Assembly (NCBI RefSeq): GCF_002277955.1
Contig: NZ_CP018477.1
Span: forward strand, 2,811,206 to 2,875,205
Origin: Thermogutta terrifontis
GTDB taxonomy: Bacteria; Planctomycetota; Planctomycetia; Pirellulales; Thermoguttaceae
Length of the DNA: 64,000 nucleotides
Reading direction: 5' to 3'
In this document: positions 34,266-59,392 of the stretch, in pieces
Numbering within the stretch: the stretch's first letter is position 1
Layout of the letters: each line of letters opens with the position of its first letter
The notes under the pieces: model-generated
The model's database searches: none
What the model saw: the letters and a program-made list of their open reading frames with translations, nothing else
Told to the model about the DNA's origin: nothing
Program-made: the position numbers and the translations under genes

Positions 34266-35633
34266 TTGCAGGAAGGCCGTCGCCGCACTTGTATAGTGTT
34301 TTCATTCCACTCCGGACTGCAAGGAACAGATCAAAAAAGGGTGATCGCGGCACCTATAAGCCGGTTCCATGGTGACTTTTCCTGGGAGGCGCGTTCATCG
34401 TGCCCGCCAGATGAGAGCGGAGGATCCAGCGCTGGCGAGTGGACACGACCGGCACCGTGTTCTGAATACCGGGATAAGAGTCTGGTCCCACTGGGCGGAA
34501 TCGCGCTTCTTTTTGGTTTCCACCCATCGAACAAACCCTCCGAGGCTGGAGCGCTGGACGTTTTTTCCGAACACGTCTTTCAAGTGTGTGTCCCACTGGG
34601 CCACCTCCTCCAGGTCACTGCACACGATCATCGTGGCACGGTGCTGGCGATTAAGGCCGACGAGGTGCGGAAGCTGGTGGGACTGACCGCGCCGGGGCCC
34701 GATGATGAAGTACTCCAGTTGCCGGGGCAAGCAGGTGGCGAGGAGGCCCCGCTGCCTTTTCAGTACGAACGCGAAGGGGCTACGGCGGTTGAGTATGCTC
34801 TTCCCCCGGGACTCCCACCGAACCCCCATCCCATGCAGGTTGTCCATTTGAAGGAAGGGTCGTATATTTGGGCGCCCAGCAAGAAGAATCCTGAAGTTTT
34901 CCGCTGGCAATCCCTGCAAGAGGCGATGCAGCATCGGCTGTTCGTCTCGCCGGTGGTGGAGGGGAAAAAGACAGCCCAGGAGGCGTTGGAGGGCATCAAG
35001 TCGGAAACGCACCAGAAGGCCGTTCAGAAGTATCACCGCATCCTGGGGATGGCCGATTTGCATCCCACGACGGTGCATGACGCGGTGGGGCAATTCGGTG
35101 AACCCGAGCACTCATTCATGGCCACTTTTGGGAAGTTTGAAAAGGACAAACTGACACTGGCGGCATGTACGATGGGATTGGTATCGGAAAAGCCGCAGCT
35201 CGGCGTGGCCATGTTTGAGCGGATTCCCAGGCTAAGGAAATACGGGATGCTGACGGCCCGCATTGCCAAACCGCTAGAGGAGATTGATAAGGTCATGCGG
35301 GAAGTCCAAGAGAAAACGGGGATTTACGGCTGGACAGTGGTGCCCTATGAGGGTTTCTTTGAGATTGTTTTGTGTGCCGACAAAGATCAACTAGATGTGG
35401 CAAAAAAGGATATTCAAGAGAATTTCAGAGGTAGCAAACTCAAGAAATATGGTGGCAAATTGCACTATATCGGGGAGGACGATAGGGAGCACGCTGCGGA
35501 AACCTACATCAAGAACATCATGGCCATAGCCGGCAGTAAGGCCGAATATTACTTAAAGCTGGTATCCCATAATGTCCCGAAAGAAGTGTTTACCCAATTA
35601 GCACAGAAAAATGCGACAAAACCGGGGAGCTAA
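34266..35633 (+). CDS. Unrecognised protein beside the CRISPR array, start uncertain
   Basis: I do not recognise a family. The frame is open from a TTG at 34266 (455 codons). The first about 90 codons read like chance translation; convincing protein text begins near FSEHVFQVCVPLGHLL (about residue 98). A GTG at 34341 is another possible start. The body includes GMADLHPTTVHDAVGQFGEPEH, and a C-terminal half rich in Lys and Glu with no membrane segment. The next gene starts 3 bp after its stop, with GGGGAG as ribosome binding site, so the two form one unit. The second half, from about 35.3 kb, is visibly more AT-rich than its neighbours, which hints at transfer. No homologous partner is seen elsewhere in the window. 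Confidence 0.55.
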   Translation: MQEGRRRTCIVFSFHSGLQGTDQKRVIAAPISRFHGDFSWEARSSCPPDESGGSSAGEWTRPAPCSEYRDKSLVPLGGIALLFGFHPSNKPSEAGALDVFSEHVFQVCVPLGHLLQVTAHDHRGTVLAIKADEVRKLVGLTAPGPDDEVLQLPGQAGGEEAPLPFQYEREGATAVEYALPPGLPPNPHPMQVVHLKEGSYIWAPSKKNPEVFRWQSLQEAMQHRLFVSPVVEGKKTAQEALEGIKSETHQKAVQKYHRILGMADLHPTTVHDAVGQFGEPEHSFMATFGKFEKDKLTLAACTMGLVSEKPQLGVAMFERIPRLRKYGMLTARIAKPLEEIDKVMREVQEKTGIYGWTVVPYEGFFEIVLCADKDQLDVAKKDIQENFRGSKLKKYGGKLHYIGEDDREHAAETYIKNIMAIAGSKAEYYLKLVSHNVPKEVFTQLAQKNATKPGS

Positions 35634-35636
35634 CCG

Positions 35637-36140
35637 ATGAGTAACAGAAACCACAAACGGAACATACTCAGCGCTGAACAGATAAGAGCTCTTGAAAAGG
35701 AACGCGACCTATTGTGGGAAAAAATTTTTGCTATTAACGAAGAGGCCAAACGATATGTCCAGTCCATTCTTGATTCGGTCGGGAATAAGCCAGTTGTGAG
35801 GAATCCTCATCCAGAAAAGAATCCAATGTATGATATTCACAAATCTATGCGTTTTTTTGAGGATAATCCTTGGTTTTGGCAAATCAAAGATGACGACGAA
35901 CCTAAACTCAAGGCAATGAAATCCGCCCTAAGGCATACATTCATTCACGAGTACCTATTAACTCCTGAAGAAGATAAGGAATTGGAGCGTATCCTCGCGA
36001 AAGCGGATCCGCTTGAGCGACGAATAGATGTTATTAACAAGATGCTCTGGGAAGGCTTAACACAAGAGGAGGCCGAGGCCGAGGTTGCCGAAGAGGAGCG
36101 AGAAGAGGAAGAAGGTGGGGACGCGGTGCTTTTCGTATGA
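35637..36140 (+). CDS. Unrecognised 167-residue acidic-tailed protein
   Basis: No family recognised. The protein is mostly helical by composition, with a probable coiled coil near the start (ILSAEQIRALEKERDLLWEK) and a strongly acidic end (EVAEEEREEEEGG). It has no signal peptide or membrane segment. GGGGAG lies 7 bp before the ATG and the upstream gene stops 3 bp earlier, so the pair is cotranscribed. A strong terminator follows 55 bp downstream. Base composition is AT-rich relative to flanking chromosome. Position directly before the CRISPR array makes a defence or counter-defence link thinkable, but nothing in the protein shows it. Confidence 0.65.
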   Translation: MSNRNHKRNILSAEQIRALEKERDLLWEKIFAINEEAKRYVQSILDSVGNKPVVRNPHPEKNPMYDIHKSMRFFEDNPWFWQIKDDDEPKLKAMKSALRHTFIHEYLLTPEEDKELERILAKADPLERRIDVINKMLWEGLTQEEAEAEVAEEEREEEEGGDAVLFV

Positions 36141-36194
36141 GTGATCCAGCAAGCTGAAACTGAACTTCTCTGTTCGTGTTGCCCTCCACGAAGG

Positions 36195-36232
36195 CCGCCT
36201 GTGCCCCCCGTGCACAGGCGGTTCTTTTTTTC
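36195..36232 (+). terminator. Rho-independent terminator after the two-gene unit
   Basis: CCGCCTGTGC and GCACAGGCGG form a perfect 10-bp stem with a short C-rich loop, followed by TTCTTTTTTT. It closes the unit at 34.3-36.1 kb and insulates it from the array. Confidence 0.85.
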
Positions 36233-36394
36233 GCCCCATGAGCCTGGCGACTTCCTGGCTGCCCCCAAGGGTGGACATTGGAAGATAAAAGCACACCCCC
36301 TGATCGAGCTATTGACTCCGGTCTGCCTGTTTCTGGTATTAGTCGTGTAATCGCACAACTATAGGTGGAAAAGCATGGCGACCATTACTCTCGA

Positions 36395-36430
36395 TAAACA
36401 ACTGGATAGTGAACAAGTGCTCGATACACT
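36395..36430 (+). repeat. Degenerate CRISPR repeat remnant
   Basis: The last 13 bases (36418-36430, GTGCTCGATACACT-like) match the 3' end of the repeat, CGCTCGGATACACT, with one base missing and one or two changes. The 5' two thirds are no longer similar. Exactly 30 bp, one spacer length, separate it from repeat 1. This fits an old terminal repeat that has decayed. Confidence 0.5.
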
Positions 36431-36460
36431 CGCGCGCGTCATTACGAGAACGCATTCTAC

Positions 36461-39400
36461 GCTGTGGTTTGCGGGGAATCGTCGCTCGGATACACTTGAG
36501 AGCGTCAAGTTGAACGTTACAAGCGAGCTGTGGTTTGCGGGGAATCGTCGCTCGGATACACTCACTTTCCCATAAATAGTACAAGATTGTTGCTGTGGTT
36601 TGCGGGGAATCGTCGCTCGGATACACTGAGGGATGTCTCTGGAAAGGCCTCGACCAAGCTGTGGTTTGCGGGGAATCGTCGCTCGGATACACTTACTCCG
36701 AATTGTGCTACTGCGGGCGCAAAGCTGTGGTTTGCGGGGAATCGTCGCTCGGATACACTGAGGGATGTCTCTGGAAAGGCCTCGACCAAGCTGTGGTTTG
36801 CGGGGAATCGTCGCTCGGATACACTTTCGCCGCTGCACTCGTGGCATAGGTACGCGCTGTGGTTTGCGGGGAATCGTCGCTCGGATACACTGAGGGATGT
36901 CTCTGGAAAGGCCTCGACCAAGCTGTGGTTTGCGGGGAATCGTCGCTCGGATACACTTACTCCGAATTGTGCTACTGCGGGCGCAAAGCTGTGGTTTGCG
37001 GGGAATCGTCGCTCGGATACACTATCTCCCATTCGTTGAAGGATGCCCCGAATGCTGTGGTTTGCGGGGAATCGTCGCTCGGATACACTTTCGCCGCTGC
37101 ACTCGTGGCATAGGTACGCGCTGTGGTTTGCGGGGAATCGTCGCTCGGATACACTCACGGCTCTGAACTCGCTGCGGCCATTGCGGCTGTGGTTTGCGGG
37201 GAATCGTCGCTCGGATACACTTGGGCTTCCTGAGCTTGTCGCGCCGCTTCGCTGTGGTTTGCGGGGAATCGTCGCTCGGATACACTACGCGGCGTACTCC
37301 GCCCGCGTCAGCTGGCGCTGTGGTTTGCGGGGAATCGTCGCTCGGATACACTTCGCTAATCTACGACCGGGCGCCGGTGAGGCTGTGGTTTGCGGGGAAT
37401 CGTCGCTCGGATACACTGTACCGCGGGAGTTGCTCTGGTCGCATCGGCTGTGGTTTGCGGGGAATCGTCGCTCGGATACACTTGGCCGGATGCTCCCGTA
37501 CGACGAATCAGTGCTGTGGTTTGCGGGGAATCGTCGCTCGGATACACTTCAATGACTTTCGCCTGTTCATCCGAAAGGCTGTGGTTTGCGGGGAATCGTC
37601 GCTCGGATACACTTCAATGACTTTCGCCTGTTCATCCGAAAGGCTGTGGTTTGCGGGGAATCGTCGCTCGGATACACTACACGCGATGTGCGGCGTCGGT
37701 CTTTTGTTGCTGTGGTTTGCGGGGAATCGTCGCTCGGATACACTTCTATCGTTCTTGGAATGGGATAGGCATCCGCTGTGGTTTGCGGGGAATCGTCGCT
37801 CGGATACACTTGTGAGCCCGACGTTCCAGGATTGACTGCAGCTGTGGTTTGCGGGGAATCGTCGCTCGGATACACTGTGTCCCGGGAAGTCCTGGAGGGC
37901 ATGATGCTGTGGTTTGCGGGGAATCGTCGCTCGGATACACTCCTTCGTCGATCCCGTTCTCATCGCGCGTGCTGTGGTTTGCGGGGAATCGTCGCTCGGA
38001 TACACTCTTTACTGTCGTCAATCGCTGTGTTTTTAGCTGTGGTTTGCGGGGAATCGTCGCTCGGATACACTCCTGTGCCGTCGCGAGTGCGCCTGCCCTA
38101 CGCTGTGGTTTGCGGGGAATCGTCGCTCGGATACACTATTATCTTGCGTGTGTTAGCGCCGAATACCGCTGTGGTTTGCGGGGAATCGTCGCTCGGATAC
38201 ACTCGCATGATGCGTTTGCGTGCCTACCAGAAAGCTGTGGTTTGCGGGGAATCGTCGCTCGGATACACTCGAAACGTGATCCACTACTTTCGAGCGATGG
38301 CTGTGGTTTGCGGGGAATCGTCGCTCGGATACACTGCTTTGAGTTTGTAGTTAACCGGTTCTGCCAGCTGTGGTTTGCGGGGAATCGTCGCTCGGATACA
38401 CTTGGCTATCGGGATCGAGACACAGGACGTTGCTGTGGTTTGCGGGGAATCGTCGCTCGGATACACTTATTTCGCGCTCTGGCTGGCAAAGCACAAGGCT
38501 GTGGTTTGCGGGGAATCGTCGCTCGGATACACTGGCTGAGGCGAGATGATCGAAACTGGGGCAGCTGTGGTTTGCGGGGAATCGTCGCTCGGATACACTA
38601 GCCCGCGATTCTTGGAAGAGGCCGAAGAGCTGTGGTTTGCGGGGAATCGTCGCTCGGATACACTAGCCCGCGATTCTTGGAAGAGGCCGAAGAGCTGTGG
38701 TTTGCGGGGAATCGTCGCTCGGATACACTTATACTTTTCCCCCAGATGACGTAGGTCTTGCTGTGGTTTGCGGGGAATCGTCGCTCGGATACACTTGAAA
38801 AGGGGGACGCAGGGCGGGAGAAAAGCTGTGGTTTGCGGGGAATCGTCGCTCGGATACACTAACGTGAACGTCTGGGGGATAGAGGAACAGCTGTGGTTTG
38901 CGGGGAATCGTCGCTCGGATACACTGTGTCCCGGGAAGTCCTGGAGGGCATGATGCTGTGGTTTGCGGGGAATCGTCGCTCGGATACACTTTGCCGCTTT
39001 TTTCAAGGATAAACCTTGACGCTGTGGTTTGCGGGGAATCGTCGCTCGGATACACTATGGATTGACGTGACCGCTTCCGACAGTGCGCTGTGGTTTGCGG
39101 GGAATCGTCGCTCGGATACACTGCGAACTGCTGGCATTCACTGTCTGGAGCTGTGGTTTGCGGGGAATCGTCGCTCGGATACACTATCGCGTGATCGGAA
39201 CGTCTAATAATTTGAGCTGTGGTTTGCGGGGAATCGTCGCTCGGATACACTATGGCAGCACTCATCCAGGAAATGCAGCGCGCTGTGGTTTGCGGGGAAT
39301 CGTCGCTCGGATACACTGAATCGTGGTGCGAACAAGATTTCCCGGTGGCTGTGGTTTGCGGGGAATCGTCGCTCGGATACACTGTGAACCGGAATAGGGC

Positions 39401-41754
39401 GGCACCCCAGGGTGCTGTGGTTTGCGGGGAATCGTCGCTCGGATACACTAGGTGCCCGGTTCGGTGACGGCCGGGGGGGCTGTGGTTTGCGGGGAATCGT
39501 CGCTCGGATACACTAAGCCGCCGTGCAGAGATTGCTCTTCGATCGCTGTGGTTTGCGGGGAATCGTCGCTCGGATACACTTGTGCCGGTCACCGGTTCGC
39601 AGCCGACGAGCTGTGGTTTGCGGGGAATCGTCGCTCGGATACACTCCGCGATCCAGGGATCTCAAAATGGGAATCGCTGTGGTTTGCGGGGAATCGTCGC
39701 TCGGATACACTCGCGTGCCATTCGATTTGCGACAACGGATTGCTGTGGTTTGCGGGGAATCGTCGCTCGGATACACTTACTCGTTCCACGCCGGACTGGA
39801 CGTTGTGCTGTGGTTTGCGGGGAATCGTCGCTCGGATACACTTCTGCACCCGGGCCGTGCTCAATCTGGCGGCGCTGTGGTTTGCGGGGAATCGTCGCTC
39901 GGATACACTGCGCCGCCATGGAAGGACACGCTTTTCAACGCTGTGGTTTGCGGGGAATCGTCGCTCGGATACACTGCTCCCCTCTGTCGAGCTGCCACAG
40001 GCTGTGCTGTGGTTTGCGGGGAATCGTCGCTCGGATACACTAAACCATCCGCAGCGCTCGCACCAGACAATGCTGTGGTTTGCGGGGAATCGTCGCTCGG
40101 ATACACTCCTGCGGCTGTCCTTGTCCCTGCCCAGGCTGCTGTGGTTTGCGGGGAATCGTCGCTCGGATACACTGCCGCTTGATGTTGGCCTTGATTGCGG
40201 CTTGCTGTGGTTTGCGGGGAATCGTCGCTCGGATACACTCCATCAACACGGGCAAGTTCGTGGAAGTGCGCTGTGGTTTGCGGGGAATCGTCGCTCGGAT
40301 ACACTAAGGCCGATTGGGATGTTGATGAGGCCCATGCTGTGGTTTGCGGGGAATCGTCGCTCGGATACACTAACACTCTGGGGACACAGTGACGAGACCG
40401 TGCTGTGGTTTGCGGGGAATCGTCGCTCGGATACACTCGGTCGCATGGGCCTCCGTGGTCAGTGTCGCTGTGGTTTGCGGGGAATCGTCGCTCGGATACA
40501 CTCGAGCCCCAGCGCCGAATCCTACGACGTACTGCTGTGGTTTGCGGGGAATCGTCGCTCGGATACACTGGGAGCACTGGACTTCGATTCGCTGTTCGGC
40601 TGTGGTTTGCGGGGAATCGTCGCTCGGATACACTGAGGGACGATGCCCTCATCGACGTTATCGTGCTGTGGTTTGCGGGGAATCGTCGCTCGGATACACT
40701 ACTCGTCGATTTTGTCGAGCCACGCCGCAGGCTGTGGTTTGCGGGGAATCGTCGCTCGGATACACTAAAATACTTGTTCTTAGGAACGTCTACTCGCTGT
40801 GGTTTGCGGGGAATCGTCGCTCGGATACACTGGCGTTTTCCTGTATCCCCCTGAAGTTTAGCTGTGGTTTGCGGGGAATCGTCGCTCGGATACACTGAAG
40901 GGGGGAGTGAACAGGCCGGTCTGGCAGCTGTGGTTTGCGGGGAATCGTCGCTCGGATACACTTCAGGATACTCCAGCGCTTCAGAGATCTGGCTGTGGTT
41001 TGCGGGGAATCGTCGCTCGGATACACTCAAGGGTGAGGTCAAGGGTGAGGTCAACCCGCTGTGGTTTGCGGGGAATCGTCGCTCGGATACACTATCTTTT
41101 CGCCGTCACCTGCCGCGGAGAAAGCTGTGGTTTGCGGGGAATCGTCGCTCGGATACACTAGCTGATTCTGGTGGAGGGGACGGAAATCTGCTGTGGTTTG
41201 CGGGGAATCGTCGCTCGGATACACTAGGGGATGGGTGATGGGGAACTCCCGGGGCGCTGTGGTTTGCGGGGAATCGTCGCTCGGATACACTCGATCTCCC
41301 CGTTTAACGGCTTCCCATGAGGCTGTGGTTTGCGGGGAATCGTCGCTCGGATACACTAATGCCCGTGTTCAGCGCCCGCGCAACCGCGCTGTGGTTTGCG
41401 GGGAATCGTCGCTCGGATACACTCCCGCACCTACAAGGGGAAGCACGTCTTTGGCTGTGGTTTGCGGGGAATCGTCGCTCGGATACACTCACGGAAGGAC
41501 TGACCTTTCTACTCTTTCGGCTGTGGTTTGCGGGGAATCGTCGCTCGGATACACTTAATCCTGCGAGAAGAATTGCTCACAAAGCAGCTGTGGTTTGCGG
41601 GGAATCGTCGCTCGGATACACTCCTTGCGAAATGACACGACTCGCCCTCTTAGCTGTGGTTTGCGGGGAATCGTCGCTCGGATACACTTTGGCCTTTTTG
41701 GAGGAGTGGCGAAATTTTGCTGTGGTTTGCGGGGAATCGTCGCTCGGATACACT
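36461..41754 (+). CRISPR. Type II-C CRISPR array: 81 repeats of 36 bp, 80 spacers
   Basis: The repeat starts GCTGTGGTTTGCGGGGAATC and ends GTCGCTCGGATACACT. I located 81 copies by hand, the first at 36461-36496 and the last at 41719-41754, and saw no variant copy. Spacers are 27-31 bp, mostly 29 or 30; the shortest, 27 bp, is at 39123-39149. Several spacers are repeated: 36628, 36760 and 36892 carry one sequence; 36694 equals 36958; 36826 equals 37090; 37549 equals 37614; 38600 equals 38665; 37877 equals 38926. The anti-repeat in the tracrRNA shows that crRNAs read from the plus strand. cas2 lies 49 bp beyond the last repeat in the opposite direction. Because the repeat has no stop codon in several frames, long false ORFs cross the array on both strands. 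Confidence 0.99.
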
Positions 41755-41803
41755 ACCTGCGACCAACTTCGTTAAAAGAACACAACTTGCGACACGCCCA
41801 TGC

Positions 41804-42145
41804 TCAAAAAAGCATGAGCTGCCGAGGTGCTTTTTCATTCTCCTGGCGAATTTTTCCCACATAGTTTTCCATTTTTCCAAATTGCCGGTCAGTAACGGGT
41901 AACAGCCGAACAGCGCCTTTCGGCGGTAGGTTCGCTCGGATCTCCTGCCGATAGGGATGCATTGCCTCTTCACTTGGAAATGGCCTGGCGTACACAGAGT
42001 ACTGTAACTGACAAAACCCCATTTCCAGCAAACGTTTGCGGAAACGTGTGTACTCCCTCCTCGCCTTCCGGTCGTCCATGGGCAGATCAAACAAAACAAA
42101 AAGCCACATGATCTTGTAACCTGACGGGAGATCACCGCGAGGCAT
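41804..42145 (-). CDS. cas2: CRISPR-associated endoribonuclease Cas2
   Basis: Partner of Cas1 in spacer integration. From the ATG at 42145 the protein has 113 residues. The ferredoxin-like core begins YKIMWLFVLFDLPMDDRKARR, with the conserved Asp after the first strand, followed by FRKRLLEMGFCQLQYSVYAR. Starts 10 codons earlier or 12 later are also open; GGAG 5 bp upstream favours 42145. It overlaps the 3' end of cas1 by 14 bp. A short hairpin, CATGCT/AGCATG with a T6 loop, overlaps its stop codon (41799-41816). It is transcribed against the array. Confidence 0.93.
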   Translation of the reverse strand: MPRGDLPSGYKIMWLFVLFDLPMDDRKARREYTRFRKRLLEMGFCQLQYSVYARPFPSEEAMHPYRQEIRANLPPKGAVRLLPVTDRQFGKMENYVGKIRQENEKAPRQLMLF

Positions 42146-43040
42146 GGCAGCTCCAATCGGGCAACAGCAAGTCACGGCGTTTTTTTAAGAACACGTCCGC
42201 AAGCGAGGCGGCAATTCGACTGAGTACATCAAACAGCGTTCGTCTTTCACCCTCGAAGAAATATCGCTCCTCGAGAAACCCAAGTAAACGCGATTTCACC
42301 TCTGGTGTGAGTTCTGCATCTGCTGGGAACTCCCTCAATAACGCAACCACCAATAGATCCACGCGAGGGCGAAACGGCTCCATCAAATCGTCGGCCAGAC
42401 AAAACGGATTGTACCGATTATGGTGATGAATCCCCAAACTTGGATGGAGGCCCACTCCTGTTATGGCTCGCGCAGTTACAGCCCGTAAAATGGCATAACC
42501 ATAATTCAAAAAGCGATTCTGATCATTCCGATCGGGATCTCTGCGAAACGTTCGATCCTGGAAAAGGTATTGCCAGTATCGACGAGACGCCATTGCTTCC
42601 ACATTCGAGGTGTCGCCCGACCGAACTCTCGCAGCCAGTCGCGCTAAGCCATAATCCCGCCCGTGCAATTCTTGAAGAACAGCAGCCTGGGATTGAATCT
42701 TGCTGCGGACGATTTGCTGCCATAATCTTTTTCGAGTGGGCAACGAGGCCTGTGCCTGGGCCGCCAGTCGTTCAGTTTGAACATGATGGTTCACGAGAGG
42801 GAACATTGTTCCCACGGGCCGGCTCGTCGCATCGCATATCACGCAGACAGCCCCAGCCTCGGCAAGGCCCGCCAGAACCGGCTGGGTCAATGTGATGCAC
42901 GGGTTGGCCGCAATCAGAACCGCAAGCTCTGCCAAAGGCAGAGTCACCTCCAGCTCATCTCCCGTCTTGATGACGAGTTGTCGATGACGGACCGACAGTT
43001 TCGCCGGTTTGTTTGCCAGTTCGACGACGTGATTAATCAT
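42132..43040 (-). CDS. cas1: CRISPR-associated integrase Cas1 (type II)
   Basis: Metal-dependent integrase that inserts new spacers. The 302-residue protein has the expected catalytic residues: E148 in TSNVEAMASRRYW, H205 in LHPSLGIHHHNRYNPF and the acidic DDLMEPFRPRVD (about 217-228), whose E221 completes the site. These positions closely match type II Cas1 proteins. The ATG overlaps the end of cas9 by 8 bp and the gene end overlaps cas2, so cas9-cas1-cas2 is one tight operon. No csn2 or cas4 accompanies it, which is the mark of subtype II-C. Confidence 0.97.
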   Translation of the reverse strand: MINHVVELANKPAKLSVRHRQLVIKTGDELEVTLPLAELAVLIAANPCITLTQPVLAGLAEAGAVCVICDATSRPVGTMFPLVNHHVQTERLAAQAQASLPTRKRLWQQIVRSKIQSQAAVLQELHGRDYGLARLAARVRSGDTSNVEAMASRRYWQYLFQDRTFRRDPDRNDQNRFLNYGYAILRAVTARAITGVGLHPSLGIHHHNRYNPFCLADDLMEPFRPRVDLLVVALLREFPADAELTPEVKSRLLGFLEERYFFEGERRTLFDVLSRIAASLADVFLKKRRDLLLPDWSCHASR

Positions 43041-46000
43041 TCGCCGGAAGGACCTCGCCCAAAGGTGTCACCATCACCTTCCGTGCGCGACGCTGGAAAA
43101 GCTGACGATACGTAGCGCGTATTCGCTCCCGTTGCTCTCTTATCAAGGTAATTGGACGAGCGTCGTGAGGCAAGCGCAATTCCAAATTATCGTCGGAAAT
43201 TCCAACCACCCGGAGAAGTTGCTTTTGGCCATCATCGTTGATCCATTCGATGTATTCGCTTTTGGCCAGCGAGAATTTGAATCGGGTGTTTGGGCCGTGA
43301 TCGCGGCAAACTACCGGCTCACCCCGTTTCTTACGCTCGTATGCTTCGTACAAACTGACGATCTTGCCCTTCCAACGGACCTCTTGACCTTGCCCATCGA
43401 GCAAAGCATAAATCTCGATGTGGTGATTGTTTCCAGGCACGACGTAACGTTGGCGAGGACCATCCCCTACCGCAATGACGGAGCTGCTCACCCAAATTCG
43501 AGCGGATTTAACAGGCAAAGCGGTGTTATTTTTTCCGCGAATAATCGGGAGGTTGGCGTCAGTGGCAAACGCCTTTTTGGGATCCGATGTCCCAAGCTGC
43601 TTCAATTTTTCCTTCACTAAGTCCCGAACAGTTGGATCGACGATCCTTTCGACTTCATGGGAGGACATTTCCCTGAGAGGCTTGCGAACCTTGGTCTTCC
43701 CCTGTTCCGTGGGCGGTGCGTAATATGTTTGGTCGTGGAGGGCTCCAGAAAGACGCCGGCTGACTCGGAACGAAACCACAATCCCCTCCACATGCCGTTG
43801 CACATCGCTCAGGAAAGTACTCCATGGGGGATCAAGCCGGACAGCCACTCGTGGCCAGGCCTTCAAAAGGCGCGATGCTTCGTGGGCGAACCGCTGGATC
43901 ATTGAGGGTTCCGTGAGTGCCACAACTATCGCGTCAATCGCATGATGACGGTGATCGTAACGATTCTTTTCGGGACTCCCTCCTAAAATCGCGTTGAGAT
44001 TCCATGCACGTCGGAAGAGGCCGGTTAAACCACCGGCAACTGTAAAGACCCGCTGTTGCCCGGTCGGGTCAATTCTTCCCCCATATAAATGTCCTAAATA
44101 ATCGGCGGCTGCCTTAGAGATCCACCGGGTATCACTCAGCTGTCGGAGTGCGAAGTCGGGTGGTATTTCTTCTGCTTGAAAGCGAACAAGCTTCTGCCGC
44201 GCGAATGGGCCACGAAAGTTTCTCACTCGGGTGATTATCTCCTGCCAGCGCACCGGATCAGTGGCGTAAGCCTCGTACGGAGTGCGGCCCGCCTTGACTG
44301 AACGATTCTCTTGGTGATAGCACAGGGTCTTATTCATGAACGAATCGTCAAGCGAGCGATGCAGCGGCCAGATATGCTCCACATCAAACTCGGGATGATC
44401 CCCCAACAATGCTTGAGTTGTGATCTGCTTGCCCGTGTACGGACATATCCAATTGCATTCTTCAGCCAACAGATATTTCTCAATATCCCTGGGCGCGGCT
44501 GTCCGACCGAGTTCCTGCAGCACCCTCTGCGCCGCCTCCTCCCGCCGTTTTTGCTGCTCCCGCATCCGCTTCGAAATCTCCTCACGCTCCTTGCGAGAAC
44601 GTTTCAATTCTCGAGCCACTTCCACTCGAATGCATCGAGGTATCCCATACTTGCGGATAATCGCGTTAACCACCTTGCGCAGTTCGGTGAGAGCTCTGAT
44701 CAGCAGCGGATTTCTCACCGTCGGTAGAACCTGCCGAACCGGCGGTAGCTCAGCATGTTGATTAATCTTCCGTTGTGTCCCACCATAAACTTTTTGTATC
44801 GCTGCATTGAGACGCTCGCCCTGCTCCAGTAACGGCAGAAGCCTTCGAATAGCCCGGCGACTGAAGCTGTGGTAGCCTTGCTCTAACGGCAGTCCAGCGA
44901 GTTGAGACGCAACTTCGCGGTTAAACCCCCAAACCCTATGCAGATGCTCCTCAAGGGTATCAGCGCGAAGAAATGCTATCAAAGTATCTACCAGCGCTTT
45001 TTGTCTTTCCCTACCCAAATCCTCCCACGTAGCATCACCTATGACTTTTCTAATTTGGGCAGAAGTTCTATTACCCGGCAGCTTTTTCTCACCACCACGT
45101 TCCAGATTGCATTCCCAACCTTCACCTTTTTTGCCCGTGGGAATTCCGAGAGTCTTTTTAATCAGAGTGAAACTCAGGTCTTCGTTTCGTTCCGCCAGAT
45201 CATAGAGTTTCTGCCTTTCTTCCGGCGACAGCACACGGCGCTGACCTTGTGGATCGGTGAACTCAAGATCATTAATTCGCTGCATATACCGAATTCTCTG
45301 TGCTTCAAGAGAGGCCATTGGCGCACGCCTGAAAGGATAGATATATTCGACCTGTCCGTTGGGACGTTTCCGCGGGAGCACTTCCAATGGGCAGCGTCCC
45401 ACAAGGCCGTGCTGCAATTTGAGAGGTCGTTGAAAAAAGATCGCCTTGTAGAGTCGTGCTTTCTTGCTATCCGTAAGAGAATTCGGATGATGGGAACGTT
45501 GTGCGTTCCATATCTGTTCGAACTCGTCCTGGAACATTTTCCGAGAGGTGTAACGATTACGAATTCTTTGCTCGTGCGGATTGAGCCGCGAGAAAAACTC
45601 GCCCAGCGTACGCGCACCCGATTTCTGAATTTCATCCTGAAGCTGCGAAATCCCTTGCTTCACGACGCCGAGTTCTTCATCCTTATTCTTCTCAAGTGTG
45701 CGCCGGTTGCTGAGAAATCCGCGACGTTGGGCAAGGTGGAAAAAGACGCGGCCCAACAACTCGGGTGGCAGTGGATGATCAAGTGCTGCGGCTCGGAGAC
45801 GGTAAATGAACGTGTGAGCTAGAAGGCCGTCGTTATTTGCACCCGGAACATTTGTCCGCAGCCATTCTTGGGCTTTTTGATCGAGCGTTTCAAGATACGC
45901 TTTGCGAGCGGTACTCGACCGCGGCCCGGTTAGAAAGAGGCCCATTTCCTGAAGCACCCGATATGTTCGTCTAAGACGCTGAGCCCGGCGAAACATTTGG

Positions 46001-46221
46001 CGGCGCAGTTGCCTTGCTTGACGCCGCGATTGACCAGGTGGTTCCTCTTTTCCTTTTTCGACCTCTTCCAAACTCGCGTTGCTGAGTTCCCAACACCGAA
46101 CCCCTGCTCCGAGCAACGACTGCCCACCATCGTTATCAATTTCAATGGCTGCCCAACCTAGGGATACAACCCCGAGGTCAATTCCCAAGACGTAGTCTAC
46201 CTGGCCGTTCTTTGTTTTCAT
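43033..46221 (-). CDS. cas9: CRISPR-associated endonuclease Cas9, compact type II-C
   Basis: RNA-guided DNA endonuclease of 1062 residues, close to other compact II-C enzymes. All catalytic parts are intact. RuvC-I has D15 in YVLGIDLGVVSLGWAA. An Arg-rich bridge helix spans about 64-90. RuvC-II has E534 in CIRVEVARELKRS. The HNH domain has CPYTGKQ, H616 in FDVEHIWPLH, and N639 in HQENRS. RuvC-III has H760 and D763 in HHAIDAIVVAL. The C-terminal part (about 800-1062), which should hold the wedge and PAM-interacting domains, is least conserved by eye. The gene begins the cas9-cas1-cas2 operon and is divergent from the tracrRNA gene, with about 100 bp between them. PAM preference cannot be read from sequence. 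Confidence 0.98.
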   Translation of the reverse strand: MKTKNGQVDYVLGIDLGVVSLGWAAIEIDNDGGQSLLGAGVRCWELSNASLEEVEKGKEEPPGQSRRQARQLRRQMFRRAQRLRRTYRVLQEMGLFLTGPRSSTARKAYLETLDQKAQEWLRTNVPGANNDGLLAHTFIYRLRAAALDHPLPPELLGRVFFHLAQRRGFLSNRRTLEKNKDEELGVVKQGISQLQDEIQKSGARTLGEFFSRLNPHEQRIRNRYTSRKMFQDEFEQIWNAQRSHHPNSLTDSKKARLYKAIFFQRPLKLQHGLVGRCPLEVLPRKRPNGQVEYIYPFRRAPMASLEAQRIRYMQRINDLEFTDPQGQRRVLSPEERQKLYDLAERNEDLSFTLIKKTLGIPTGKKGEGWECNLERGGEKKLPGNRTSAQIRKVIGDATWEDLGRERQKALVDTLIAFLRADTLEEHLHRVWGFNREVASQLAGLPLEQGYHSFSRRAIRRLLPLLEQGERLNAAIQKVYGGTQRKINQHAELPPVRQVLPTVRNPLLIRALTELRKVVNAIIRKYGIPRCIRVEVARELKRSRKEREEISKRMREQQKRREEAAQRVLQELGRTAAPRDIEKYLLAEECNWICPYTGKQITTQALLGDHPEFDVEHIWPLHRSLDDSFMNKTLCYHQENRSVKAGRTPYEAYATDPVRWQEIITRVRNFRGPFARQKLVRFQAEEIPPDFALRQLSDTRWISKAAADYLGHLYGGRIDPTGQQRVFTVAGGLTGLFRRAWNLNAILGGSPEKNRYDHRHHAIDAIVVALTEPSMIQRFAHEASRLLKAWPRVAVRLDPPWSTFLSDVQRHVEGIVVSFRVSRRLSGALHDQTYYAPPTEQGKTKVRKPLREMSSHEVERIVDPTVRDLVKEKLKQLGTSDPKKAFATDANLPIIRGKNNTALPVKSARIWVSSSVIAVGDGPRQRYVVPGNNHHIEIYALLDGQGQEVRWKGKIVSLYEAYERKKRGEPVVCRDHGPNTRFKFSLAKSEYIEWINDDGQKQLLRVVGISDDNLELRLPHDARPITLIREQRERIRATYRQLFQRRARKVMVTPLGEVLPAND

Positions 46222-46262
46222 GATTGTCCCATTTCCTCTATCAACTCACATTACTGAAAAAC

Positions 46263-46288
46263 TCCTCCCATTTTAGCTCAATGGGGAG
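46263..46288. promoter_or_regulatory. Inverted repeat between cas9 and tracrRNA
   Basis: CTCCCATTTTAGCTCAATGGGGAG forms a stem of about 7 bp (CTCCCAT with ATGGGGAG). It ends next to the -35 box of the tracrRNA promoter and lies in the cas9 leader on the other strand. It could be an operator or a leader hairpin; the function is unknown. Confidence 0.4.
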
Positions 46289-46317
46289 TTGACAACCACT
46301 GCGATTCGTTTTACTAT
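46289..46317 (+). promoter_or_regulatory. tracrRNA promoter
   Basis: A perfect -35 TTGACA (46289-46294) and a -10 TACTAT (46312-46317) are spaced by 17 bp. Seven bases further is A46325, exactly the first base of the anti-repeat. This agreement makes the call strong. Confidence 0.85.
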
Positions 46318-46324
46318 GGAATCC

Positions 46325-46447
46325 AGTGTATCCGAGCGACGGTTCCACGCAAATCACAGTAAGGTGATTCCGTGTGGAATCGCCGTACGGTAAACCCAGC
46401 ATGCTGGGTGCCGTTAACGCCCTCAGCCTGTGGCGGGGGCGTTTTTT
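46325..46447 (+). ncRNA. tracrRNA of the type II-C system
   Basis: Trans-activating RNA that pairs with the crRNA repeat and docks it in Cas9. The anti-repeat (46325-46360) matches the reverse complement of the array repeat at 32 of 36 positions. It is followed by a 9-bp hairpin, GGTGATTCC-GTGT-GGAATCGCC (46363-46384), then a second hairpin with CCCAGC/GCTGGG inside ACGG/CCGT, and a terminator hairpin (about 46417-46442, ACGCCC with GGGCGT) ending in T6 at 46442-46447. The predicted RNA is about 123 nt. It is divergent from cas9. Ends are predicted from promoter and terminator, not mapped. Confidence 0.95.
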
Positions 46448-52135: not shown

Positions 52136-52490
52136 GCGTCACGTTGCAATTCGCCAAGCATCGCCAAAGCCCCGGGACGGCCAGCGGGTGCCGGTGCTTG
52201 TGGTAGCATGGCCCCCGATCCGCGAGAACGGCCCTTGGACTCTGGAGGTGCGGGCACCCCGGGAGGTCGTCACCGCCCGGATTGTCGTTCCGCCCATCGC
52301 ATTCCTCGATGACCCGCGAGCGGAGTTGCTGGCTGAAGATTTCATCACGCAACAGATTCCCAAGACCATGCACGATCTTCTGCTCCCGGCGGCGGTTGTC
52401 GCGTCGGACAATCTCCGCCCGGTTACACCGAGTGAGTTTCTGGATGCCCAGGAGTATGCCACTTTGATACGGAGTCTTGTGAATGCCTGA
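52128..52490 (+). CDS. Small unrecognised element protein
   Basis: A protein of 120 residues starting MAERHVAIRQASPKPRDG. It overlaps the HTH gene before it by 8 bp and the helicase gene after it by 8 bp, so it is embedded in one operon. No domain is recognised. The text is protein-like with conserved-looking hydrophobic strands (RVPVLVVAWPPI) and a helical end. Confidence 0.6.
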   Translation: MAERHVAIRQASPKPRDGQRVPVLVVAWPPIRENGPWTLEVRAPREVVTARIVVPPIAFLDDPRAELLAEDFITQQIPKTMHDLLLPAAVVASDNLRPVTPSEFLDAQEYATLIRSLVNA

Positions 52491-54162
52491 TCACTACCCA
52501 GCAACTCTCAAGGCCACAGCAAGCAACGGCGAAATTGTGGTAACACTGAAAGGCGGTCCTCTTCCCAAACCTATCACTCATTCTGTTCCAGTGAAGGATC
52601 GAACGGCCTGGCGTGAATTGGCGGACCGATTCCACCGTCAATTTGGGATCGATATGGGCGACACACTCAATGTACTCCTCGAGGCGGTCCACGAGGCAAA
52701 AACACAGGGCAGGGATGCCCACCCGGTGGATCCCCCGGTGGAATCCCCGCCCGTGGATACGCCGGCCGATTTCCCGCCTAAAACCAACAACACAGAATCG
52801 GAGTTTGATTTTCAACCCGTCATCATCAACCTCGAAGAGGTTGTAGCGACCCCGGTGGAATGGCTCTGGGATAAACGCATTCCGTTAGGCCGGATCACAC
52901 TCTTAGTTGGCAAGCCAGGCCAAGGCAAGAGTTTTCTGACGTGTGACTTTGCGGCCCGTGTGACCACCGGGACGCCGTGGCCGGACGGTTCACCCTGTCA
53001 GAAAGGTTCGGTTCTCATGCTCACACTGGAAGATGACCCGGCGGACACTATCCGCCCGCGACTAGACGCTATGCACGCCGACGTGACGCGAGTGCGAATT
53101 CTCAAGGCTGTAAACTACCGCGATATAGACGGTGCCCGGCGTCAACGAGGGCTGACGCTGGCTGATTTACCCGTGATTGAAAAGGCCCTGGAATCACTCC
53201 CCGATTGCCGACTTCTGGTGATTGACCCCATCGGGGATTTTCTTGGCAGGCAAGTGGATTCCCACCGTGACAACGAAGTCCGGGAAGTGCTCACTCCGCT
53301 GGCTGAGCTGGCCCGGCGGCGCAAGGTGGCCGTCCTGGTGGTCATGCACCGCCGGAAATCTACAGGTGAGGGTGGGGCTGATGAAACGGCCATGGGTTCG
53401 CGAGGTTTCACTGGAATTGCCCGAAGTGTTTGGCATGTGTCCAGGGATGCCAACGACAAAAAGCGGCGGCTATTCCTACCCGGGAAACAGAATCTCGCGG
53501 AGGAGCTGCCCGGCTTAGCTTTTCGGATTGTCGGTGACTCTCCGTGGACGCGTGTGGAATGGGAACGCGAACCCGTGAACATGAGCGCCGATGAGGGCCT
53601 CGAAGCGGAGCGGCAGGCGTCACGCCCCGGCCCCGAGGCCGACGCCCTGGAAGAGGCGAAGGCATTCCTGCTAACGGCATTGAGTGCCGGCCCGCGGTTG
53701 GCCAAAGACGTTAGGCAAGAATGGGCCGAGGCTCATTGCGGGAGCGACAAGACTCTTTACCGTGCCAAAAATGCGATCGGTGTTGTGTCTTACCGCCCAG
53801 AAAATCCTGGACCATGGTGGTGGCGTCTGCCCGACAGGGCAGATGGTCAAGCAGATAGTCAAAATCCCCTAACACAAAAAACTTGGCCATCTGGTCCATC
53901 TGTGGTCAAAAACGGGCTTTTTGAGCGCTCTAGAGGGGCAGATGGTCAAGATGTCCAAGTTATAGGAGAACTTGACCATGTGCTCAATGACCTCAAACCT
54001 AAACCCAGCGAGAACCCAACACCTACACCCCCCGAAAGTGGCGGGACGGATTCTGGGCAATCTGGACGGCCTCAACGTCCCGTGGTGGACATTGGTGAAC
54101 TGAATCGCCGACTGGCGGAAGCGGCCGAAGCCGGCGGCGATGCTTGGGTGGACTTCGCATGA
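52483..54162 (+). CDS. RepA-type hexameric helicase/ATPase (AAA_25)
   Basis: A replicative helicase-like protein of 559 residues. After an N-terminal region (about 1-105) comes the RecA-like core with EWLWDKRIPLGRITLLVGKPGQGKS (Walker A 143-150), LEDDPADTIRPRL, Walker B LLVIDPIGDFLG, and VVMHRRKS. The family includes plasmid RSF1010 RepA and many satellite replication proteins. The C-terminal part is Pro/Ser-rich and low-complexity. It begins 8 bp inside the previous gene. It probably replicates the excised element; no separate primase is visible in the block. Confidence 0.85.
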   Translation: MPDHYPATLKATASNGEIVVTLKGGPLPKPITHSVPVKDRTAWRELADRFHRQFGIDMGDTLNVLLEAVHEAKTQGRDAHPVDPPVESPPVDTPADFPPKTNNTESEFDFQPVIINLEEVVATPVEWLWDKRIPLGRITLLVGKPGQGKSFLTCDFAARVTTGTPWPDGSPCQKGSVLMLTLEDDPADTIRPRLDAMHADVTRVRILKAVNYRDIDGARRQRGLTLADLPVIEKALESLPDCRLLVIDPIGDFLGRQVDSHRDNEVREVLTPLAELARRRKVAVLVVMHRRKSTGEGGADETAMGSRGFTGIARSVWHVSRDANDKKRRLFLPGKQNLAEELPGLAFRIVGDSPWTRVEWEREPVNMSADEGLEAERQASRPGPEADALEEAKAFLLTALSAGPRLAKDVRQEWAEAHCGSDKTLYRAKNAIGVVSYRPENPGPWWWRLPDRADGQADSQNPLTQKTWPSGPSVVKNGLFERSRGADGQDVQVIGELDHVLNDLKPKPSENPTPTPPESGGTDSGQSGRPQRPVVDIGELNRRLAEAAEAGGDAWVDFA

Positions 54163-55405: not shown

Positions 55406-57232
55406 ATGACGACCGCAACAAGAACCCTCCAACTAAAAGCCGCCCCGTTAATTGTTGAGGCCGAAAAGGAAAAGAAGCCAGTTAAGGTACGCATCACGGC
55501 CTACACCGGGGGCATCATGACTGTGCCGGGGTGGGGACCGGTCATCATCGATCTGCAGGGCCTTGATTTACCGCAGCGGGTTACTCTGCTCTTGGATCAC
55601 GAAGGCCGTACCGAAGCCACCATTGGTTGGGGAATACCTAAAACCGACGGAAAAACCTTAGTGATTGACGGTACGGTAACAGAAGCCACGGACGCCGGCA
55701 AACTCGTCATTGCTCTACTGAAAGATGACGTCCCCTTGCAGGCCAGTGTGGGTGTTGAAACGAACCAATACCGGCCGTTGAAGCCTGGGGATACCATCAC
55801 GGTCAACGGGCAAACAATCACTGTCGAATCAGACACTTTTCTTATCGAGGGTGGAATCCTCCGGGAAGTTTCAGTTGTCCCGCTGGGAGCGGACAAACAG
55901 ACGATGGTCACGTTAGCAGCAGGAGTGAGGAATATGACACACCAACCAGCTCCCCCTGAGAACTCGTCACCTGGTGAGACGATCGAGGCGAAATATATCC
56001 TGGACTTACTCTCTGTGTGCGGAGATGACATGAGCACATTCAGGCAAGCCATCGAAAACCGGTTGCCACTTGAGACCGCGAAAGCTCTCGCTGAGACCCG
56101 CCGCCGCCCGGTGATTCCTCCAGTACTCAATGCTGAGGTCAAGGACACACCCGCTTCCATCCTTGCCGCCGCCGCCTTGAAACTGCTTGGTAAAGAGTCA
56201 TTGGCGGAAAAGGAACTTGGTGCGGAGACTCTATCGGCGGCTGCCAGCTACAAGCCGCGAACCGCTCTTGATCTTTGCGGCATGGCTTGTCAAATGAGTT
56301 TGGGCTATGCCCCCCGGGGAACCAACGAGATTATTCGGGCGGCTTTCTCCACGACAGACTTGCCCGTTGCCCTGGGTGTGGCGGCCAACAAAATCGCCCT
56401 CGATGCCTACCAGCAAGCCCCCGCGACATGGAAATCCTTTGCCCGGATTGTGTCGGCCAAGGATTTCAAGGAACATACTGGTATCCGCTTGACCGGTGAC
56501 TTCAAACTTGAAGAGCTGGCCGCCCACGGCGAAATTAGGCACGCCAATGTGGGAGAGGAAACCATCACTTACAAGGTGACCACCTACGCCAAAATGCTCA
56601 TGCTGGACCGCCAACACATCATCAATGATGACATCGCGATCCTGGACCAAATCCCCACGATCTTCGGACGTGCCGCTGCGCGGAAGGTGGCCGATCTGGT
56701 TTACACGGTGCTTCTCAGTAATCCGGGCGGTTTTTTCTCCGCTGCCCACAGCAACCTGATTACTGGTGCGGAATCTGGGCTGAGTGTCGCCAGCCTTGCC
56801 GAAGCCATCGCGGCCCTACGCAAACAAACGGACGCCGACGGCTTGCCGCTGGACCTGGTGCCCCGTGTTCTTCTCGTCCCACCCGAACTGGAGGCGACCG
56901 CCCGGCAAGTGCTCAACAGTGTCGAACTCTACCGCTCGGGCGGAGACCAGCTCCCTGCTGGTAATCCCTTCGCTGGCCTGAACATCGCGTTAGAGGTCGA
57001 GCCACGGCTGAGTAATACGTACTTCCCTGGTAACAGCACCGCTGCCTGGTATCTGCTCTGCGGCCCTGCGGATGGTAGCTTCCTTGTGGCCTTCTTGAAT
57101 GGCCAACAGGGGCCAACCATCGAACCAGTGGACCCCGGAGCGGATAAGCTTGGCACCGGCTGGCGATGCTACATCGATATAGGAGCGGCTGCCGCGGACT
57201 GGCGGTGTGCCGTGAAAGCATCCGGTGCCTGA
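55406..57232 (+). CDS. HK97-type prohead protease-major capsid protein fusion
   Basis: A protein of 608 residues. The N-terminal about 170 residues match the prohead protease fold: VTLLLDHEGRTEATIGWG with H65 and VPLQASVGVE with S114, the expected His-Ser pair. A linker follows (about 190-260) and then a major-capsid-like part (about 270-608) with FTLxx-type delta region text such as LTGDFKLEELAAHGEIRHANVGEETITYKVTTYAKM split across strands, and RQHIINDDIAIL, typical of Mu gpT/HK97-like coat proteins. Fusion lets the protease ride with the coat. It ends at a strong terminator. No portal or terminase accompanies it. Confidence 0.85.
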   Translation: MTTATRTLQLKAAPLIVEAEKEKKPVKVRITAYTGGIMTVPGWGPVIIDLQGLDLPQRVTLLLDHEGRTEATIGWGIPKTDGKTLVIDGTVTEATDAGKLVIALLKDDVPLQASVGVETNQYRPLKPGDTITVNGQTITVESDTFLIEGGILREVSVVPLGADKQTMVTLAAGVRNMTHQPAPPENSSPGETIEAKYILDLLSVCGDDMSTFRQAIENRLPLETAKALAETRRRPVIPPVLNAEVKDTPASILAAAALKLLGKESLAEKELGAETLSAAASYKPRTALDLCGMACQMSLGYAPRGTNEIIRAAFSTTDLPVALGVAANKIALDAYQQAPATWKSFARIVSAKDFKEHTGIRLTGDFKLEELAAHGEIRHANVGEETITYKVTTYAKMLMLDRQHIINDDIAILDQIPTIFGRAAARKVADLVYTVLLSNPGGFFSAAHSNLITGAESGLSVASLAEAIAALRKQTDADGLPLDLVPRVLLVPPELEATARQVLNSVELYRSGGDQLPAGNPFAGLNIALEVEPRLSNTYFPGNSTAAWYLLCGPADGSFLVAFLNGQQGPTIEPVDPGADKLGTGWRCYIDIGAAAADWRCAVKASGA

Positions 57233-57492: not shown

Positions 57493-57720
57493 ATGGCCAA
57501 GACCTGGAAGTCAATCCACAAAGCCCTTCGCGACTGCATTCTTTCCTGCGGCAAAAGCTACAGCCAGATTGCTCGGGAAACGGGGATATCTCGCCCAGCC
57601 TTGTACAGGCTACTTGCCGGCGGAGGCTTGTCATTAAAGCACACCGAAACCCTCATGCGATACTTTCGGTTGGTGATTGTTTCTGAAGCGTTTGACGAGT
57701 TAAAGCAGGAGCGGGGGTGA
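57493..57720 (+). CDS. XRE-like helix-turn-helix regulator
   Basis: A protein of 75 residues. KSYSQIARETGISRPALYRLLAGG is a lambda-repressor-type HTH. It has its own extended -10 promoter and its TGA overlaps the integrase ATG (TGATG), so the two are coupled. Likely a repressor or a regulator of integration; which operators it binds is unknown, though the twin palindromes at 51782-51818 are candidates. Confidence 0.75.
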   Translation: MAKTWKSIHKALRDCILSCGKSYSQIARETGISRPALYRLLAGGGLSLKHTETLMRYFRLVIVSEAFDELKQERG

Positions 57721-58961
57721 TGGCTACGTTAACCAAGGATAGAAAGGGGTGGCGAATCCGCTGGTACACCCGGGAAGGGGAACGAAAGAGCCTCCGCTTC
57801 GGAAGGTGTAGCGAGCGCGTGGCCAACCAACTTTTCGCGGTAACCTCCCGGCTTATCGATGCTACGGAGTGGGGCCTTCCCCCTGACCCTAAAGTGAAAG
57901 CCTGGTTGGAAAACCTACACCCTGAGTTTGTCTCCAAACTCCAGAAAGCAGGTTTACTGGAATCCGTCCGTCAAGTGACTCTCGGCCAAGCCGTTACGGA
58001 GTTTTTGGAGAGATCGCAACATTATGCCGCGTGGACTCTCTCTAACATTCACCAGGCTTTCAGATACCTGATAACCTTCTTTGGCGAAGACAGGCCATTG
58101 GGGTCGGTTACGGTTGCAGATGTTGAGGACTATAAGCGGTGGTTACTTTACGAGGCACAAACCAGGCGGGCGCGACGGGGCCTCTCCGAAGCCACAGCGG
58201 CTAAGCATCTTTCATGGGCGGGCACTCTCTACCGCGACTTTATCAAACGGAAAGTTGTCACGCACAACCCGTTTGATGGCGTCCAAAAGGGTTCCCAAGT
58301 CAATCGCGACCGTCGGGTCTATGTACCCGCTGCAATCATTGAAACGCTCATCGAGCGGGCCCCAAGTTTGGAGTGGAAACTGTTACTGGCAATGGCACGG
58401 TACATGGGGGTGCGAGTGCCCAGTGAGCCGTTCAGCATGACTTGGGATTGTGTCGATTGGGAGCGTTTATTGATCCGTGTACCATCACCCAAAACTGCGA
58501 AACAAGGGAAACCGTTCCGAATGGTGCCTATCTTTCCACCGGTTCGCCACCACCTGGAGGCTCTTTGGGAACAGGCGGAGGGGAAGACCTACATCTTCGA
58601 AGAGCTTCGTAAACGGGACTCCATGAAGAACGCGGATCAGGGAAAATGGAAGGCGATTAACCTTCGGGAACGACTCAGGCGGATGCTTATCAAGGCCGGC
58701 ATCGCCCCGTGGCCCAAACTTTGGCAGAATCTCCGATCAAGCGCTGAAATGGACCTCTTGGCCAGATTTCCGCCCGCCGCGGTTTACGAGTGGATTGGAC
58801 ACACAGCCGATGTGGCCCGGGGTCATTACTTCCAAATCAGACAAGCGGATATCGAAAAAGCCATCAGTGAGGAATGGGCACCCCCAGATCGAGCGGTGGA
58901 CCTAAAAGTTGCCCCGCAATCGCATACAAGGATGTACAAAGGGATACAAAACGCGAACTAG
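57720..58961 (+). CDS. Tyrosine site-specific integrase
   Basis: A protein of 413 residues from the ATG at 57720. An N-terminal SAM-like core-binding part (about 75-150) precedes the catalytic domain. Catalytic Arg I is in MGVRVPSEPFSMTWD, Arg II in WQNLRSSAEMDLL (the usual His of HxxR is Q/N, as in other planctomycete integrases), followed by EWIGHTADVARGHYFQI with the His and the Tyr nucleophile. It lies 92 bp from the 3' end of tRNA-Leu, facing it, as is usual for integrases that use a tRNA attachment site. Confidence 0.92.
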   Translation: MATLTKDRKGWRIRWYTREGERKSLRFGRCSERVANQLFAVTSRLIDATEWGLPPDPKVKAWLENLHPEFVSKLQKAGLLESVRQVTLGQAVTEFLERSQHYAAWTLSNIHQAFRYLITFFGEDRPLGSVTVADVEDYKRWLLYEAQTRRARRGLSEATAAKHLSWAGTLYRDFIKRKVVTHNPFDGVQKGSQVNRDRRVYVPAAIIETLIERAPSLEWKLLLAMARYMGVRVPSEPFSMTWDCVDWERLLIRVPSPKTAKQGKPFRMVPIFPPVRHHLEALWEQAEGKTYIFEELRKRDSMKNADQGKWKAINLRERLRRMLIKAGIAPWPKLWQNLRSSAEMDLLARFPPAAVYEWIGHTADVARGHYFQIRQADIEKAISEEWAPPDRAVDLKVAPQSHTRMYKGIQNAN

Positions 58962-59053
58962 CCCCTTAGGCACACTTTAGCGTAAATTGTTTCTGTACAT
59001 CACGTTACATCAATTTGCTTTCCTATGCCTAGCCCCCGTAAATACCCTAAGAT

Positions 59054-59136
59054 GCCCTGGAGAGGATTCGAACCTCCAAGGGGTTTCCCCCACATGGTCC
59101 TGAGCCATGCGCGTCTGCCAGTTCCGCCACCAGGGC
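59054..59136 (-). tRNA. tRNA-Leu, anticodon CAG
   Basis: The minus strand reads a full cloverleaf of 83 nt: acceptor GCCCTGG/CCAGGGC, anticodon stem CATGG/CCATG with loop CTCAGGA (anticodon CAG), a long variable arm TGGGGGAAACCCC, and T arm with GGTTCGAATCC. The long variable arm is typical of class II leucine tRNAs. CCA is not encoded, and the CCA-adding enzyme gene is 257 bp away. The 3' end faces the integrase and is the probable attachment site. Confidence 0.97.
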
Positions 59137-59392
59137 ATTGGATAGACCAGCCAAATTATATTCCTGGCCTCCGACACCTCATACCCCTAGCCGCATTGCC
59201 AGGAAAGCCAAGAGCCTACCCGAAAACCAAAAGCCGACGGCTGATTCCGCCAACTCAGAGGTTTTCGGATCGGTCCTGAGTGCCAGGCCGTTGGGCTGGG
59301 TTTCCTAAGCACTGTCACTTATCATTTTAATATTTGCCGGGCAAGTCGGGAAGCCTGGCCTTCTGCTCCATATATCAGCCATCAAGAGCCGC

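Follow-up and report, generated by a model that had tools for sequence, protein, structure and literature searches.

The closest described counterparts of the locus reported here are the type II-C CRISPR-Cas systems (clustered regularly interspaced short palindromic repeats and CRISPR-associated proteins) of Campylobacter and Flavobacterium. Our locus lies at positions 36461–46447 of a 64,000-nt stretch (hereafter the window; positions 2,811,206–2,875,205) of the chromosome (CP018477) of the hot-spring bacterium Thermogutta terrifontis R1, a single contig of 4,810,751 bp. According to PMC4283603, PMC12080349 and PMC8092290, the described systems carry cas9-cas1-cas2 without csn2 or cas4, a trans-activating CRISPR RNA (tracrRNA), 36-nt repeats and spacers of about 30 nt, and their arrays are transcribed toward the acquisition end; the Thermogutta locus is alike in gene set, tracrRNA, repeat length and spacer length, and its array would likewise be transcribed toward the acquisition end. 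It differs in that its Cas9 belongs to a mostly planctomycete branch, and in that the promoters borne by the repeats of the described systems are matched in the host repeat only by a weak -10-like motif. A second point of comparison is GeoCas9, a protein of 1087 aa active up to 70 °C, whose source bacterium has an optimum near 55 °C (PMC5681539 and PMC10707453). Both are compact Cas9s from bacteria with a high growth optimum, but activity at high temperature was measured for GeoCas9 and is only expected for the Thermogutta enzyme. Thermostable II-C Cas9s are already known, and the polarity of II-C arrays is already in print.

The region contains a CRISPR array, cas2, cas1, the gene of a 1062-residue Cas9 and a tracrRNA. 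We consider it almost certain, judging from the sequence, that these form a standard, apparently intact type II-C CRISPR-Cas9 immune system, which is probably active. This reading is based on the intact genes, the family matches of their products, 81 identical repeats, the evidence for the tracrRNA, the likeness to a second Thermogutta locus, the Cas9 tree and the lack of csn2. A preliminary description of the window had already proposed a complete II-C system with all parts intact, an array of 81 repeats and, conditionally, a thermophilic host. All five parts could in fact be located and the repeat count agreed, and a published growth optimum of 55–60 °C for the organism makes the host a thermophile. 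The parts are as follows.

36461..41754, + strand: CRISPR array of 81 repeats and 80 spacers; the CRISPR RNA (crRNA) strand is + and runs toward cas2, the strand being taken from pairing with the anti-repeat
41804..42175, - strand: cas2, 123 aa from GTG, or 113 aa from the ATG at 42145
42132..43040, - strand: cas1, type II/NMENI family, 302 aa, with E148/H205/E221
43033..46221, - strand: cas9, 1062 aa, with RuvC and HNH catalytic residues
46289..46317, + strand: promoter-like site of the tracrRNA (TTGACA, 17 nt, TACTAT), a pattern match
~46325..46447, + strand: tracrRNA, with anti-repeat, two hairpins and a terminator hairpin with T6

The three cas genes overlap at their ends and all lie on the - strand, opposite to the crRNA strand of the array; for cas2 the ATG at 42145 is the likelier start. 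The preliminary description had named D15, E534, H616, H760 and D763 of Cas9 and E148/H205/E221 of Cas1 as catalytic residues, and all eight were found at these positions; the five Cas9 residues are invariant in 19/19 aligned Cas9s. It had also suggested a profile search of the three proteins, and in this search each matched the expected family: Cas9 matched TIGR01865 with 648 bits, Cas1 the type II family TIGR03639 with 267 bits (cut-off 120) and Cas2 its family with 60 bits (cut-off 24.5). Pfam and PADLOC assignments agree with these. Among solved structures, the best matches of Cas9 are 8ja0, 6kc8 and 6jdq, which we take to be Neisseria II-C Cas9, with up to 255 bits and the best stretch at residues 139–778. 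No best stretch in the table of matches extends beyond residue 809, and the one piece reaching beyond it in the five alignments shown, residues 806–888, is weak (8.7 bits), so the C-terminal quarter finds hardly any match among the solved Cas9s listed.

All 81 repeats of the array are 36 nt long and identical, which is far above chance. The 80 spacers, 73 of them distinct, are mostly 30 nt (52 spacers) or 29 nt (23) in length, with four of 31 nt and one of 27 nt. One spacer occurs three times (3, 5 and 7) and five occur twice (4/8, 6/10, 17/18, 22/38 and 33/34). At 36592–37119, near the old end of the array, three of the recurring spacers follow the pattern A B A C A B x C, which recombination between identical repeats would fit.

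The tracrRNA is complementary to the array repeat through its anti-repeat, and its predicted fold has a z-score of -5.4. Its promoter-like pattern occurs on average 0.3 times in shuffles of the region. Moreover, the anti-repeat pattern of the host has matches outside arrays in 19 of 42 loci of relatives, and TTGAC stands within 50 bases upstream of the anti-repeat in 15 of these 19. We aligned the host sequence with those of 17 of the 19 relatives (18 sequences; L015 and L045 were left out), and found that 16 of the 22 predicted pairs are kept through two-sided changes in at least one of the 18 sequences, a count that leans toward the structure because this was predicted on the same alignment. 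Covariation contributes little to the energy (-2.8 of -20.9 kcal/mol), and for some predicted pairs up to six of the 18 sequences break the pairing.

The assignment to type II-C is supported by the gene set cas9-cas1-cas2, by the type II Cas1 and the Cas9 family match, and by the lack of csn2 and of any cas4 save one beside distant type I-B genes. The preliminary description had regarded a csn2 or cas4 gene just outside the locus as speaking against this subtype. However, a search of the host genome with the csn2 profile TIGR01866 gave no match, while the positive control found one in the Nicoliella plasmid NZ_CP093360. Likewise, the cas4 profile PF01930 matched nothing in the II-C locus, its single match in the genome being at 4,627,731, about 1.77 Mb away; since this cas4 stands amid type I-B genes, it has no bearing on the II-C locus. 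The possibility that the locus is of another type II subtype (II-A, II-B or II-D) is extremely small on this evidence, and two further profiles argue against it. First, the II-B family TIGR03031 has no match in the host. Second, the Cas9d model gave 167 bits, against a cut-off of 375. As type II-D systems have cas4 in the locus (PMC12669027), II-D was rejected on both the profile and the missing cas4 match.

We also built a Cas9 tree, as had been suggested together with the profile search. It is a quick tree of 51 rows with support from the Shimodaira-Hasegawa-like approximate likelihood ratio test (SH-aLRT), with no solved or characterised Cas9 among its rows. Partial Cas9s (L020, L023, L036, L037 and L038) and two plasmid loci (L080, unannotated, and L083, with a split gene) were excluded, and no fixed start was used for several rows, which may therefore have additional N-terminal residues. 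In this tree the host Cas9 joins that of Thermogutta sp. MAG-77 (support 100) inside a group of 11 rows (99) that come from its own family and order. This in turn lies inside a mostly planctomycete branch of 28 rows (100). Besides a single row from Acidobacteria, the branch contains the Pigmentibacter Cas9, a II-C enzyme with cas1 and cas2 recorded next to it. The Nicoliella row, which bears csn2, pairs elsewhere in the tree with an orphan Lactobacillus row (100). The host Cas9 is therefore set apart from the II-A pair and from the II-B-like row and grouped with the II-C enzyme of Pigmentibacter, in line with the subtype proposed earlier. There are also features of the tree that count against this placement: the branch of the II-B-like row is very long, and the tree leaves several deep forks open. 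Support for holding the five rows named II-C together is 63 only, so that the tree alone does not define II-C and to that extent leaves room for another subtype, and long branches meet at the II-A/II-B side. Hence the separation from II-A is clear, while that from II-B is only rough. With the gene content and profiles taken together, type II-C is the assignment we retain.

The genome holds a second CRISPR system, of type I-B, at G000:C1:4622134-4633181 (L098/L099), with Cas7 (Cst2), Cas5, Cas3, Cas4 and Cas1b, and PF01867 accordingly finds two Cas1 genes in the genome, one per CRISPR locus. The I-B array comprises 37 repeats that differ from the II-C repeat. The two arrays have no spacers in common, with only matches of 8 to 14 nt between them.

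The II-C locus of Thermogutta sp. MAG-77, which is split over two contigs (L034 and L037), is most like that of the host. It has the same repeat, a Cas9 that is 86% identical, a nearly identical tracrRNA and a similar cas2-side flank, and by eye it shows cas1- and cas2-like sequence and an array in the same order. In contrast, none of its six spacers examined equals a host spacer. Matches to the host Cas9, some of them partial, were found in 33 of 294 sampled planctomycete genomes and in 17 of 61 genomes of the family (host counted in both), whereas two further genomes of the genus (97% and 87% complete) gave no match. Since these two lack a match and MAG-77 has a Cas9 of 86% identity, cas9 is patchily spread in the group.

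The system would work as follows. Cas1 and Cas2 would insert new spacers at the last repeat, which adjoins cas2. The precursor crRNA would be transcribed from the + strand, probably by means of a -10-like element that each repeat carries at its 3' end, and the tracrRNA from a separate promoter, here predicted by pattern; its anti-repeat would pair with the repeat, as their sequences are complementary. RNase III, as is generally the case, would trim the duplex of crRNA and tracrRNA, and Cas9 with both RNAs would cut matching DNA beside a protospacer adjacent motif (PAM). There is apparently nothing new in this mode of working.

Features at the two ends of the array bear on its polarity.

36193..36223, + strand: site resembling an intrinsic terminator, ahead of the array, with 12 pairs followed by a T-run
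36417..36430, + strand: degraded repeat 0, a probable remnant, GTGCTCGATACACT, which is the 3' end of the repeat with two deletions
41755..41803, no strand assigned: cas2-side flank of the last repeat, the presumed leader, from comparison with the flank of MAG-77

Some sequence signs agree in placing the acquisition end at the last repeat, on the cas2 side, because the flank there resembles that of MAG-77, some first repeats are decayed, and published II-C biology has the same direction. In detail, 42 of the 49 bases at 41755–41803, the first 10 included, are identical in MAG-77. The degraded repeat-like piece of 14 nt, GTGCTCGATACACT, stands exactly 30 nt ahead of repeat 1 and probably marks the old end of the array. 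Among relatives in which the first repeat in crRNA direction is visible, it is degraded in G315 (30/36) and G347 (29/36) and has one change in G300, the arrays of these three being on contigs other than those of their cas9. In II-C systems described earlier, spacers are added at the last repeat, a promoter lies within each repeat and mutated first repeats are common (PMC12080349), and the same polarity appears in PMC8092290 and PMC4283603. PMC12080349 also describes three ways in which an extra crRNA without use is avoided; the degraded repeat 0 and the terminator-like site, which may instead serve the upstream gene, would be consistent with two of them. The 3' end of the host repeat reads GGATACACT, as compared with GGTAAAAT in C. 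jejuni (PMC4283603). Its TACACT agrees by eye with TATAAT at four of six positions, a weak -10-like motif.

Two results run counter to this polarity. In the other 16 relatives the flank on the cas2 side is very different, and the old end of the host array has been disturbed by a copied stretch. As regards promoters within the repeats, a scanner that requires 9/12 matches found no promoter-like site in 36100–36700, which includes the first four repeats. In crRNA direction the flank at 36461 lies upstream of the array, 320 bp separating the array from the gene before it; an ordinary leader promoter there could transcribe the array, this flank then being the acquisition end; the first repeat is indeed intact in G303 and G308. 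We nevertheless regard this arrangement as very unlikely, as the same scan detected no promoter-like site in that flank, the first repeats of G315 and G347 are degraded, published II-C systems add spacers at the last repeat, and part of the flank is a copy: the 127 bases at 36290–36416 are identical to a stretch 48 kb away (G000:C1:2799458-2799683), with the identity ending directly before the degraded repeat 0. Acquisition on the cas2 side remains our reading.

Evidence against an active system comes from the spacers. The array gave no match among phages at expectation values (E) up to 1 and one weak match among plasmids (E 0.4), which was rejected as chance. Portions of seven distinct spacers out of the 73 (61, 22/38, 3/5/7, 80, 79, 33/34 and 17/18) were scanned exactly against viral contigs, with zero matches. 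A search of 392 planctomycete genomes returned only arrays of relatives and chance-level matches; the weak ones (E 0.001–0.01) are about what chance gives for that sample and fall partly on repeats. The array was searched against the 61 family genomes as well, and at most four candidates per genome (family) or two (392 genomes) were scored; the sensitivity of the larger search is limited, given that a self-match of spacer 46 seen in the family search is not listed there. Because no protospacer was found, no PAM is derivable for this Cas9 from spacer matches. In addition, the old end of the array has been disturbed by the copied stretch. One might therefore suppose that the cas genes are sound and the system is idle, with expression or acquisition stopped and the array left as a fossil record, for which the want of convincing protospacers, the rearranged old end and the three spacers recurring there would all speak. 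Against this, 81 identical repeats and intact catalytic residues argue for maintained function, and if few phages of thermophilic planctomycetes have been sampled, a lack of protospacers is to be expected. We thus consider an idle system very unlikely, and an active one the better account of the locus.

Two spacers resemble other sequences. Spacer 46 (39450–39478) agrees in 26 of 29 bases with DNA of the host itself that starts six bases past a tRNA-Val gene, and in 27 of 29 with DNA of the genus member G343 that lies equally far past a tRNA-Lys gene (L067:2297-2325 and L069:627-655). The match is too long for chance. The source of the spacer may be a relative of the host, or an element in which such a stretch was present. 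An exact scan of viral contigs with the spacer 46 pattern plus six bases of host flank gave zero matches. PAM-proximal mismatches should block cutting, and as the three mismatches in the host are at the PAM-proximal end, we do not claim a functional self-target. Spacer 61 (40438–40466) resembles, on the opposite strand, the cas2-side spacer of MAG-77 (L034:3741-3770). The likeness is weak: the search aligned 16 of 17 bases (E 0.10), and reading by eye extends this to about 20 of 23. It would fit a shared target, possibly one conserved gene.

As biology this is a regular II-C system, and the points of interest are the temperature range and the PAM of its Cas9, a possibly heat-stable enzyme from a branch that has been little studied. 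The enzyme is likely active at 55–60 °C, because the host grows best there. We tentatively propose, at rather less than even chances, that this Cas9 would, as the first tested member of the mostly planctomycete branch (28 rows, SH-aLRT 100), be active at 55–65 °C and have a PAM that differs from the PAMs of characterised II-C enzymes, since its C-terminal quarter hardly matches solved Cas9s. In the open-licence literature we found no study of the T. terrifontis II-C system or of any planctomycete Cas9; the main text of PMC7606464, a large catalogue of Cas9s, names neither planctomycetes nor Thermogutta, and in that of the T. terrifontis R1 genome paper the word CRISPR is absent. The locus offers a complete, ready-to-test guide RNA and a compact Cas9 from a cultured bacterium with an optimum of 55–60 °C; their usefulness would hinge on the PAM and the measured heat stability of Cas9.

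Other HNH_4 matches in the genome were considered as IscB-like and rejected on reading their open reading frames, on which no family search was run. Beside the array, at 34266–36140, two adjacent open reading frames of 455 and 167 aa are without a match in any of Pfam, NCBIfam, PADLOC and PHROGs. Beyond the locus, the segment 49819–59137 is a probable integrated mobile element or phage satellite beside a tRNA-Leu gene (59051–59137). No attachment repeat was found for it, only matches of 10–14 nt, and no array spacer matches it beyond 12 nt. Three of its genes are the following.

52483–54162: primase/helicase-like ATPase
55406–57232: fused head protease and capsid
57717–58961: tyrosine integrase

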